A stretch of 43,676 bases of DNA, from NCBI GenBank assembly GCA_016929195.1, contig JAFGJG010000051.1, positions 1 to 43,676 on the forward strand. Reading direction: 5' to 3'. The notes beneath the pieces are model-generated. The model did not search any database, had not been told where the DNA came from, and worked only from the letters and a program-made list of their open reading frames with translations. Shown piece after piece: positions 34,395 through 37,388 of this stretch. Position numbers and translations under genes: made by a program. Each line of letters begins with the position of its first letter. Position 1 is the stretch's first letter. The DNA is from Thermoleophilaceae bacterium. Its GTDB lineage: Bacteria > Actinomycetota > Thermoleophilia > Solirubrobacterales > Thermoleophilaceae.

Positions 34395-35432
34395 ATGGGC
34401 GAGGTGAGCGCTCTCCCGTCCAGCAACGGCGCGTCCCCGCGCCCGGCGCGGGAGGCCACGAAGGACGCCCCGATCGGCGGCCAGGCCGTGCTCGAGGGCG
34501 TGATGATGCGCGGCATCTCCACGTGGGCCGTGGCGGTGCGGAAGCCCTCGCCGGAGCAGCTCGAGGCCGGCGGCCCGGACGCGAAGGAGGGCGCCAAGGG
34601 CGACATCGAGGTCTTCTCCGAGCCGCTCGTCTCCTGGACCAAGAAGCACCGGCTGCTGCGGCTCCCGGTGATCCGCGGGACCGTCGCGCTCGCCGAGTCG
34701 CTCAAGATCGGCTTCGCGGCGCTCGGAATCTCCGCCAACGCGCAGATGCCGCCCGACGAGGAGGGCGAGCACAAGGAGCTGAGCGGCGGCGCCTGGGCGG
34801 GGACGATCGCGTTCGCGCTGCTGTTCGCCGTCGGCCTGTTCTTCCTGCTGCCGGCGGGGCTCACGAACATCTTCCGCGACGACATCCCGAACGGGTTCGT
34901 CTTCGTGGTCATCGAGAAGCTGGTCCGGATCACGATCTTCCTCGCCTACCTGTGGCTGATCTCGCGGATGCCGGACCTCCAGCGCGTCTTCCAGTACCAC
35001 GGCGCGGAGCACAAGACGATCTCCTGCTACGAGGCCGGCCAGCCGCTGACGCCGGAGAACGCCCAGCAGTTCTCGCGCTTCCACCCGCGCTGCGGCACCA
35101 GCTTCCTGCTGCTCGTGATGATCGTGGCCATCGTCGTCTTCGCCCCGCTCGGGAAGCTCGACTGGCAGTGGCTGTTCATCTCGCGCGTGCTCGGGATCCC
35201 GATCGTCGCCGGGCTCGCCTTCGAGCTGATCAAGTGGTTCGGGCGCAACCGCACCAAGGCGTGGGCGCGGGCCCTGATGTGGCCGGGCATCCAGCTGCAG
35301 CGGCTGACCACGCGCGAGCCCGACCTCTCCCAGCTCGCCGTGGCGATCGCCGCCCTTGACGCCGTGCTCGCGGTCGAGAACCCGCGCGAGGCGACGGCCG
35401 AGGACAAGGTCGGGATGGAAGTGGTCGCCTAG
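34395..35432 (+). CDS. DUF1385-family membrane protein
   Basis: A 345-residue DUF1385 protein. The N-terminal motif PIGGQAVLEGVMMRG and the later LPVIRGTVALAESL are diagnostic, and the segment YHGAEHKTISCYEAG followed by FHPRCGTSFLLLV (Cys and His residues suited to metal binding) is complete. At least four membrane helices follow. Function is unknown, but in many Gram-positive genomes it lies between rpmE and prfA, as it does here apart from the inserted envelope genes. The TAG is interlocked with the stop of the convergent small gene (CTAG). Confidence 0.88.
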   Translation: MGEVSALPSSNGASPRPAREATKDAPIGGQAVLEGVMMRGISTWAVAVRKPSPEQLEAGGPDAKEGAKGDIEVFSEPLVSWTKKHRLLRLPVIRGTVALAESLKIGFAALGISANAQMPPDEEGEHKELSGGAWAGTIAFALLFAVGLFFLLPAGLTNIFRDDIPNGFVFVVIEKLVRITIFLAYLWLISRMPDLQRVFQYHGAEHKTISCYEAGQPLTPENAQQFSRFHPRCGTSFLLLVMIVAIVVFAPLGKLDWQWLFISRVLGIPIVAGLAFELIKWFGRNRTKAWARALMWPGIQLQRLTTREPDLSQLAVAIAALDAVLAVENPREATAEDKVGMEVVA

Positions 35433-35581
35433 GCGATCTCTTCGGAGCGCAGCACGGCGCGCTCCAGCTCCTCCGCGAGGAGCAGTGCCTGGGCGGGGTC
35501 GAGCCGGACGGTCGCGATGCGCCCGAACCAGTCGTGCGTGACGGCCACCGCGACGTCGGCGCCGTGGCCGGCGACCAGCAC
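35429..35581 (-). CDS. small protein of unknown function
   Basis: A 50-residue protein from the GTG at 35581, which has GGAGAGG five bases upstream. An in-frame GTG at 35614 would add 11 residues but directly abuts the double palindrome and has no ribosome site. The C-terminal helix LDPAQALLLAEELERAV resembles the short amphipathic helix found in many small actinobacterial proteins. The stop forms CTAG with that of DUF1385. Codon usage fits a real gene; no family is assigned. Confidence 0.5.
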   Translation of the reverse strand: MLVAGHGADVAVAVTHDWFGRIATVRLDPAQALLLAEELERAVLRSEEIA

Positions 35582-35614
35582 GCTTTCCTCTCCGAGTGTC
35601 TCGATCTCGCTCAC

Positions 35615-35650
35615 GTTAGGGTGCCTAAGCAGAACTTAGGGAACCCTAAC
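35615..35650. promoter_or_regulatory. double TTAGG/CCTAA palindrome (operator or hairpin)
   Basis: Two adjacent inverted repeats, TTAGG-3-CCTAA and TTAGG-4-CCTAA, have left halves 20 bases apart (35616 and 35636), two helical turns. They nest in one larger palindrome with outer arms GTTAGGGT/ACCCTAAC and inner arms CCTAAG/CTTAGG. The element is AT-rich for this genome. It could be an operator of the DtxR/IdeR kind, whose half-sites are also TTAGG/CCTAA although the centre does not match consensus, or the terminator hairpin of tatA. Confidence 0.55.
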
Positions 35651-35662
35651 AAGAGAAGCGAG

Positions 35663-35824
35663 TCAGGACTTCCCAGAGTCCTCCCCGCCGCTGATCGAGC
35701 TCTTGAACTCGCGCATGCCGCCGCCGAGCGAGCGCCCGAGGTCGGGCAGCCGCTTCGGCCCGAAGATGACCAGCGCGATCACCAGGACGACGATCAGTTC
35801 CATGGGTCCGACTCCGGGGAGCAT
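35663..35824 (-). CDS. tatA: Sec-independent translocase protein TatA
   Basis: A 53-residue TatA/TatE protein. It opens MLPGVGPMELIVVLVIALVI, then FGPKRLPDLGRSLG, the invariant hinge and start of the amphipathic helix, and continues GGMREFKSSISG, a short version of the family (usually 60-90 residues). TatA lines the pore that exports folded proteins carrying twin-arginine signals. The ATG at 35824 has GAGAGGA seven bases upstream. It is transcribed away from two exported ferritin-like proteins, one with a twin-arginine signal. Confidence 0.93.
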   Translation of the reverse strand: MLPGVGPMELIVVLVIALVIFGPKRLPDLGRSLGGGMREFKSSISGGEDSGKS

Positions 35825-35837
35825 GTGATTCCTCTCG

Positions 35838-35999
35838 TTAGGACTTGACGAACGGCTCGACGGCCTTCAGCACCTGCGGCATCTCCAGGCTCTTGTCGAA
35901 CCCGCCGTCGGTGATCGGCACGTCGTTCAGCTGCCGAGAGTGGCTCGGGCCGGTTCCCTCCGGCCTGGGCGCTTCCTTCGTGACCCCGGCGGGATCGGA
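35838..35999 (-). pseudogene. C-terminal remnant of a ferritin-like protein
   Basis: An open stretch of 53 codons, closed upstream by an in-frame TGA and lacking any suitable start (only a GTG giving 27 residues). It encodes strongly biased, gene-like codons ending DGGFDKSLEMPQVLKAVEP-FVKS. The pattern V-P-x-x-D-x-F-D-x-x-L-x-x-x-x-V-L-x-x-V-x-x-F-V matches the C-terminal tail of the ferritin-like protein at 36720-37388 (VVPAPDAFDEPLPRRRVL). It lies directly upstream of tatA on the same strand. It is best read as the tail of a third, decayed family member. Confidence 0.5.
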
Positions 36000-36054
36000 T
36001 CAGTCGCCGTCCTCCGCTGATCCGAACCCGCGCCGGCCTCGCAGGAACCTGGGA

Positions 36055-36723
36055 ATGCGTCGTTTCCATGCCCTGAGCCAGCGCAATGCCGAGCCGGCGC
36101 GCGTGACGGTGGAGCTTGTGGCGGAGGTCGGGCCCGGCACGTCCCGGACAGGCTTCCTCGAGCGTGCCGTGGTCGCCGGGGGCGCCCTGGTCAGCGGCGG
36201 CGTCCTCCTGGCGGGATTGCCACGCCTGGCGGCGTCGGCGCCGTCCCCGGAGCAGGACGTGAAGACGCTGAACTTCGTCCTCCTGATCGAGGGCCTGCAG
36301 GCGCGCTTCTACGCGGAGGCCCTGCGGCGGGCGCAGCTGAGCGGCGAGACGCGCGAGTTCGCCGGGCGCGTCGGCGAGCACGAGCGCGTCCATCTCGGCG
36401 CCCTGCGCGACCTGCTCGGGAGGGACGCGCGCTCGCTGCCCGAGTTCGACCTGGGCGACACCGTGAGCGATCCCCGGCGCTTCCGGGCGTCCGCGGCGGC
36501 AATCGAGGAGATCGGGCTGGCCGCGTACAACGGGCAGGCCACCAATCTCACGCCTGACGCGCTGGCAGAGGCGGCCAAGATCGCGTCCGTCGAGGCGCGT
36601 CACGCTTCCTGGGCGCGCGGGCTCGCGGGCAGCACCCCCGCGCCGCGCGCCTCCGATCTGGCGGCGAGCGAGGACCGGTCGCGCGAGTCGCTCGCGCGGC
36701 GCGGCCTGCTGGAGCGGCCGTGA
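36055..36723 (+). CDS. exported ferritin-like protein 1
   Basis: A 222-residue protein with a four-helix ferritin-like domain. A membrane/export segment lies at ~39-57, preceded by SRTGFLERAVVAGG, which looks like a Tat signal with a single arginine. Candidate metal ligands are Glu79 (LLIEGLQARFY), Glu110 and His113 (EHERVH), Glu151 and Glu180/His183 (VEARH). Related proteins belong to the DUF4439/ferritin-like exported family of unknown role; iron or oxidative-stress functions are suspected by fold only. AGGA upstream supports the ATG at 36055. The stop overlaps the GTG of the next paralogue. Confidence 0.8.
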   Translation: MRRFHALSQRNAEPARVTVELVAEVGPGTSRTGFLERAVVAGGALVSGGVLLAGLPRLAASAPSPEQDVKTLNFVLLIEGLQARFYAEALRRAQLSGETREFAGRVGEHERVHLGALRDLLGRDARSLPEFDLGDTVSDPRRFRASAAAIEEIGLAAYNGQATNLTPDALAEAAKIASVEARHASWARGLAGSTPAPRASDLAASEDRSRESLARRGLLERP

Positions 36724-37388
36724 GGATCGGCGCGCTGCGCCTGTCCGAGCTCGACCGGGGCGGCGCCGTCGAGGAGACGGCGAGCCGTGCCGGCGCGCTG
36801 ACCCGCCGCGGCCTCCTGGGCGGAGGCGCGGTCCTGGCCGCCGGGCTCGCGGCGCCGGCCGCGGAGGCCCAGGGGTCGGACGAGGACATCCTCAACTACG
36901 CGCTCGCGCTCGAGTACCTCCAGGCCGCCTTCTACACCGAGGCCGAGCGGCTCGGCGCGCTGCGGGGCGCCTTCGCCGAGCAGGCCCGGGTGGTGGGCGC
37001 GCACGAGCGTGCGCACGTGACGGCGCTGCGCGACGCGCTCGGCGGCGCGGCGATCAGGCGCCCGCGCTTCGACTTCGGCGGAGTCACCGAGGACCAGCCG
37101 GCGTTCCGCCGGACGGCCGTGGCCTTCGAGGACCTGGGCACGGCCGCGTACAAGGACCAGGCGCCGCGCATCCGCTCGCGCGCCTACCTGGCGGCGGCGC
37201 TGCGGATCCACTCGGTCGAGGCGCGCCATGCCGCCTGGATCCGGAGGCTCGCGGGAGTGGTGCCGGCCCCGGACGCGTTCGACGAGCCGCTCCCGCGGCG
37301 CAGGGTGCTCCGCGTGGTCGCGGACACCGGCTTCGTCACCTCCGCGCCCCGCACGAGCGCTTTCGGTAGCCCCCGATTCACCGGCTGA
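36720..37388 (+). CDS. exported ferritin-like protein 2 with Tat signal
   Basis: A 222-residue paralogue of the preceding gene. The twin arginine (TRRGLLGGGAVLAAG, Arg29-Arg30) followed by an Ala-rich hydrophobic stretch ending AAEAQ is a regular Tat signal. The domain carries Glu65, Glu96 and His99 (HERAH), Glu137 and Glu167/His170 (VEARH), the same carboxylate and histidine layout. The two genes are coupled (GTGA). The pair is followed by an L,D-transpeptidase whose ATG overlaps this stop by one base (TGATG). Confidence 0.82.
   Translation: MRIGALRLSELDRGGAVEETASRAGALTRRGLLGGGAVLAAGLAAPAAEAQGSDEDILNYALALEYLQAAFYTEAERLGALRGAFAEQARVVGAHERAHVTALRDALGGAAIRRPRFDFGGVTEDQPAFRRTAVAFEDLGTAAYKDQAPRIRSRAYLAAALRIHSVEARHAAWIRRLAGVVPAPDAFDEPLPRRRVLRVVADTGFVTSAPRTSAFGSPRFTG

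Follow-up and report, generated by a model that had tools for sequence, protein, structure and literature searches.

What is the palindrome that separates tatA from a small ORF in this Thermoleophilaceae genome, and what kind of regulator, if any, might it serve? Within the window, i.e. the whole 43,676-nt stretch analyzed here, a scan for TTAGG/CCTAA elements finds TTAGGGTGCCTAA at 35616-35628 and TTAGGGAACCCTAA at 35636-35649, with starts 20 bp apart, and an inverted-repeat search shows that the nesting of both boxes makes one imperfect 36-nt palindrome (35615-35650), as the original prediction had described. The motif TTAGG-N3/4-CCTAA occurs twice in the window compared with 0 times in 100 shuffles. 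From sequence comparisons, we consider it likely that the pair is a tandem operator of a DtxR/IdeR-type metalloregulator, and that the box family to which it belongs most likely represents an iron regulon.

The box pair and its immediate surroundings

Read on the minus strand, the tatA stop codon is followed by 13 nt, the distal box TTAGGGTTCCCTAA, 7 nt, the proximal box TTAGGCACCCTAA, a single C, and the GTG of a 61-aa ORF. The distal 14-bp box (35636-35649) is one of ten exact TTAGGGNNCCCTAA sites in the genome, and the proximal 13-bp box (35616-35628) is the sole N3 site found in it. The gene for TatA (TatA_B_E, PF02416, assigned by Pfam) occupies 35663-35824 and the 61-aa ORF 35429-35614, both on the minus strand. 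The codon-position G+C of the ORF (0.82/0.43/0.92) is coding-like for this genome, with values of 0.66/0.45/0.92 for tatA, and the ORF has no match in Pfam or NCBIfam. Two ferritin-like proteins (Ferritin_2 by Pfam) are encoded nearby on the plus strand at 36055-36723 and 36720-37388, in agreement with the ferritin-like neighbors originally noted. The start nearest to the box pair is that of the 61-aa ORF and not those of the ferritin-like genes, and we infer the ORF to be the likeliest target, over tatA and the ferritin-like genes.

A tatA terminator had been offered as the alternative to an operator. Folded as single-stranded RNA, the palindrome does form a strong hairpin on either strand (-23.5 kcal/mol, z -5.9 on the minus strand; -22.5 kcal/mol, z -5.1 on the plus strand) 13 nt past the tatA stop, so this part of the alternative stands; however, no T run follows it and there are 0 terminator-like sites in 35400-36100, and a terminator alone was therefore rejected. 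That the palindrome is nothing more than a tatA terminator or 3′ stabilizing hairpin is highly improbable, because identical halves with an identical gap are found again at gene starts throughout the genome and the order, many of them as single short palindromes with a 2-nt center that would make poor hairpins.

The locus itself is species specific. The 61-aa ORF was found in one of 41 genomes searched, its own, the other 40 being those of relatives. In 20 relatives' loci beside the orthologous neighbor gene, several of which are short, there is no box, tatA (best E 0.013), or ORF (best E 0.40); a conserved tatA/61-aa-ORF locus was thus rejected. The segment 35429-37388, which carries the 61-aa ORF, tatA, and the two ferritin-like genes, is an insert missing at the same place in the 20 loci.

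Distribution of the box and the genes beside it

The window pair is part of a genuine box family that extends across the order. The genome (3.46 Mb, 193 contigs) was scanned with TTAGG-N3/4-CCTAA, as the original prediction had suggested, and with a control comprising the pattern read backwards, which is also a palindrome and of equal composition. The motif occurs at 16 places in the whole genome compared with 1 for the reversed palindrome, and the element is not unique in the genome; uniqueness had been named among the circumstances that would refute the prediction. If any gap of 0 to 30 nt is accepted, the two halves pair at 18 places (9 for the control), and in 16 of these the gap is 3 or 4 nt (15 N4 sites and one N3 site, that of the window); 10 of the 15 N4 sites are TTAGGGNNCCCTAA. 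When two mismatches to TTAGGGNNCCCTAA are allowed, the counts in this genome become 21 versus 12 for the control, so degenerate sites carry no information. Exact TTAGGGNNCCCTAA is present at 74 sites in 37 of 61 relatives' genomes (1 control site), and order-wide, 208 of 232 genomes contain TTAGGNNNNCCTAA, at 750 sites in total, compared with 69 control sites spread over 57 genomes. The fetched loci contain 16 box pairs no more than 60 nt apart, spaced by 20 bp (four), 14 bp (four), 17 bp (two), or one of six other distances seen once each; the 20-bp pairs are in genomes G000 and G025 and, twice, in G024.

The 16 own-genome sites group into 11 regions, and iron/metal-uptake genes adjoin six of them: SBP_bac_6 with SufB divergent (contig C7), Peripla_BP_2 (C88 and C130:10168/10182), Peripla_BP_2 with FecCD (C179), FecCD, FhuB-like (C130:16035), and EfeO followed by a DyP peroxidase of the EfeB type (C111:9645/9662). 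A seventh region adjoins a generic ABC ATPase (C130:6445). The window itself is one region (C62), the sites at C130:32574/32588 lie between a GMC oxidoreductase gene and a uS4 gene, and that at C111:5372 is beside a phosphodiesterase/glycosyltransferase gene; the site at C49:1554 is between two gene ends, and some sites may thus be idle. The 16 sites against one control and the uptake genes at these six regions lend support to the iron-box idea as first put forward.

Of 69 sites examined in the relatives, 62 lie near a candidate gene start (within -20 to 150 nt), as judged by a rough G+C filter that may admit some false ORFs. Seventy-five distinct proteins near the relatives' sites match 68 Pfam families; among the 25 of these families that were listed, FTR1 and Peripla_BP_2 (six proteins each), GSDH and Zip (four each) are the most frequent, with Ferritin and ABC_tran (three each) and FecCD, SufB, HtaA, and SBP_bac_6 (two each) also represented. 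In the own genome and relatives together, iron-uptake/storage genes neighbor many boxes, though not every site. One phosphodiesterase/glycosyltransferase-type membrane protein has a box in front of it both in this genome (L015, 5372) and in G018 (L043, 1501), making it a conserved box target without an evident iron role. A fatty-acid-hydroxylase-like gene is preceded by a box, or a near-box with one mismatch, in this genome (L151, C17:10094, assigned by the likeness of its protein to L041) and in two relatives (L027 and L041).

The distance from site to start is -1 to +8 nt in 21 of 86 cases in the relatives, the same geometry as for the window pair. Such near-leaderless starts would also suit a reading in which the boxes are symmetric bidirectional core promoters, with TAGGGT serving as the -10 element on both strands and no repressor involved; TAGGGT fits an actinobacterial -10 element, TANNNT. 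This is nevertheless highly improbable: T is present at position 7 in just 47% of 101 sites (both strands counted), the gap is exactly 4, tandem copies occur, most of the neighbors are metal genes and not a cross-section of all genes, and the scan gave no sigma-70-type match near the window pair.

Box form and candidate regulators

According to published descriptions, iron sensors of the DtxR family bind as two dimers to a 19-bp palindrome (PMC8464063, PMC10317159). For Saccharopolyspora IdeR, a half site for one dimer has been shown, and the 14-bp TTAGGNNNNCCTAA was proposed as the minimal IdeR/DtxR consensus (PMC8464063); passages in both sources call the role of IdeR half sites open (PMC8464063, PMC10317159). 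The halves of the boxes here are identical to those of the 14-bp TTAGGNNNNCCTAA sites (PMC8464063), which agrees with the originally proposed equivalence to DtxR/IdeR iron boxes. Judged by its sequence, the box corresponds to the 14-bp half site that one IdeR dimer occupies and not to the full 19-bp box. The half required for a second dimer at the 5-bp offset is present at 0 of 101 sites, the best candidates having 5 of 10 mismatches; such candidates arose in 7 of 202 tries at this offset and in none of 202 when an offset of 7 bp was used as a control. The exact 19-bp consensus TTAGGTTAGSCTAACCTAA is found in 0 of 311 sequences examined. Because TTAGGGNNCCCTAA served to retrieve most of the loci, the inner G/C preference among the 101 sites is biased; free of this bias, the figure is 10 of 15 in this genome.

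The check for DtxR-family genes that had been recommended identified two proteins above the Pfam PF01325 cut-off, L020 (contig C169) and L019 (C124), both of which have acidic residues in place of Met10 and Cys102 of IdeR. The solved structure closest to L019 is 5zr4 (E 4e-54), titled "Metal-dependent transcriptional regulator" and of the MntR type, which we take to be the tuberculosis MntR. L019 scores 215 bits against the NCBIfam MntR model, below the cut-off of 350, and has Ser-Pro-Ala-Ser at positions 37-40; L019-type proteins have Ala/Gly-Ser where the IdeR contacts are Pro39-Thr40.

L020 shares with the DtxR/IdeR proteins their three domains, all over cut-off (PF01325, DNA-binding; PF02742, metal-binding/dimerization; PF04023, FeoA/SH3-like), and DtxR/IdeR are its nearest solved structures (E 2e-27); against the NCBIfam actinobacterial DtxR model it scores 125.7 bits (cut-off 290). 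At the base-contact positions of IdeR, Ser37, Pro39, and Thr40 are kept, and L020 differs in having Glu for Gln43, a position at which the IdeR variant Q43A still bound specifically (PMC8464063). The kept helix residues speak for L020 as the box binder. L020 also differs at the sulfur-ligand positions Met10 and Cys102, each of which is Glu in all 16 L020-like sequences. Sulfur ligands have been tied to Fe2+ selectivity, and Glu in place of Cys102 to MntR, in a review (PMC10317159); MntR has Glu at one of the two positions, whereas L020 has it at both, and the case for iron rather than manganese hence rests on the target genes.

An operator of the same kind, but with manganese as its effector or the MntR-like L019 as its regulator, is unlikely. 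The resemblance of L019 to 5zr4 and MntR, the Glu residues of L020, and the ZIP-family genes among the relatives' targets (4 of 75 proteins, among the families listed) are in its favor; the FTR1, EfeO, SBP_bac_6, FecCD, ferritin, and SufB neighbors point instead to iron, and the Ala/Gly-Ser of L019-type proteins argues against L019 as the reader of an IdeR-type box. We infer that L020, rather than L019, is the best candidate for the regulator. Identification of the regulator by co-occurrence was rejected: all 16 many-site genomes examined and 15 of the 16 zero-site genomes contain DtxR-family genes (51 of the listed DtxR-family matches were read), and L020-like proteins are present in five zero-site genomes among those fetched, so their presence does not single out a regulator. 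There is no box, as a sign of autoregulation, in the fetched loci of the genome's two DtxR genes. A box does lie ~100 nt before the likely ATG of a third DtxR-family gene (L309, G025:C55), which is divergent and has degenerate residues at the positions of the metal ligands.

In the mechanism proposed for an L020-type regulator, a single metal-loaded dimer would bind to each TTAGG-N3/4-CCTAA element, with one half site per monomer, and the 20-bp spacing would put the two dimers on the same helix face. When iron is plentiful, the bound dimers would repress the 61-aa ORF; a single nucleotide separates the near element from the GTG, so they would cover both the transcription and the translation start. 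At low iron the regulator would let go, and the 61-aa ORF would be made along with the box-bearing iron-uptake genes. If this is correct, a deep actinobacterial order gets its iron box, and the stated question of whether IdeR half sites serve other species is answered with yes.

uS4 paralogs and comparison with known systems

The link to uS4 is the part worth following. This genome encodes a four-cysteine uS4 (CxxC...CxxxxC) on C49 and a cysteine-free (C-) uS4 on C130 (C130:32617-33246; 14617-15246 of L017), and two abutting boxes lie 16 nt before the GTG of the latter. Other box-bearing, cysteine-poor uS4 genes are those of G028, G047, L153-L155, L160, L161, L164, L167, and L170; those box-bearing paralogs whose complete protein was read contain 0-2 Cys. 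In a collection search with nine C- uS4 queries, from which the best 80 of 136 relatives were taken, a box is present no more than 400 nt upstream in 8 of the 80 loci, all clustering with Solirubrobacterales, and the reversed control is found 0 times in the whole of these 80 loci. Three more box-bearing C- uS4 loci are in G000, G028, and G047. L154, whose record bears the title Bifidobacterium breve, has a uS4 that clusters with those of Svornostia and Solirubrobacteraceae and has the box in common with them; the record is probably mislabeled. In G024, an 8-kb stretch around a C- uS4 gene (L115, contig C109) carries five further boxes, including two 20-bp pairs.

A box is present upstream of the C- uS4 gene in 10 of 16 genomes with a four-cysteine uS4 (read letter by letter in 14, assigned by score in G028 and G047) compared with 1 of 15 without it (Fisher p 0.002). 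These numbers come from a uS4 tree that took 46 of the 80 loci, the 34 left out being nearly all outside the order, and for 31 of its 49 proteins it was determined whether a second uS4 is present. The box would be expected to be gone where the four-cysteine uS4 was lost, because the remaining copy is then the housekeeping gene; the sole box case without a second uS4, L170, is from a genome that is apparently 77% complete. Among the six C- uS4 genes without a box, that of L165 has a one-mismatch box at -16, and L178, L192, L194, and L229 have nothing better than a two-mismatch box upstream; the gene in L152 (G024), with no box of its own, is downstream of another gene preceded by a 20-bp pair. 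Upstream of the four-cysteine uS4, a box is found in 0 of 40 loci, some of which include just a short upstream stretch. Mapped onto the uS4 tree, the box requires five changes compared with a shuffled mean of 10.1 (0 of 500 as low), implying that it was gained or lost several times. When corrected for kinship, two to three of five independent pairs agree and none opposes, which, with so few pairs, is not significant.

In Thermus thermophilus, the four cysteines of uS4 hold a [4Fe-4S] cluster (PMC11791143, PMC10450194), and an iron box on the C- paralog fits this Fe-S view of the four-cysteine protein. We tentatively propose that the Solirubrobacterales may possess an IdeR-type regulon based on single-dimer, often stacked 14-bp boxes, and that its conserved, clusterless uS4 target may provide an iron-sparing ribosome, a combination we regard as quite possible though short of probable. 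Under iron shortage, a paralog with no need for iron would take the place of the four-cysteine uS4, presumably of the [4Fe-4S] type. A study of zinc and non-zinc uS4 (Chen et al.) detected no Zur site in the vicinity of the paralogs and did not settle how they are regulated, and the word "iron" appears 0 times in its main text (PMC3087516). A limited literature search found no report of iron control of a uS4 paralog or of an iron box in Thermoleophilia. If the proposal holds, there is a testable reason for keeping a cysteine-free uS4 beside a metal-binding one, i.e. saving iron and not zinc, and a direct link of iron supply to ribosome composition.

The boxes described here have identical half sites and a gap of 4 in common with the IdeR/DtxR iron box (19 bp, TTAGGTTAGSCTAACCTAA; half site TTAGGNNNNCCTAA), as well as iron genes as neighbors and a position at the promoter/start. 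In contrast to the IdeR box, in which the halves overlap at 5 bp, they stack at 14, 17, or 20 bp, and the sites examined are solely of the 14-bp form. The uS4 arrangement resembles that of the Zur-controlled zinc-free (C-) ribosomal paralogs, in which a cysteine-poor copy likewise accompanies a four-cysteine copy and has a metal-regulator box upstream, but here the box is of the IdeR type, not Zur, and the protein is uS4. The iron-sparing ribosome, as proposed, would be the iron counterpart of the Zur-controlled zinc-free ribosomes.
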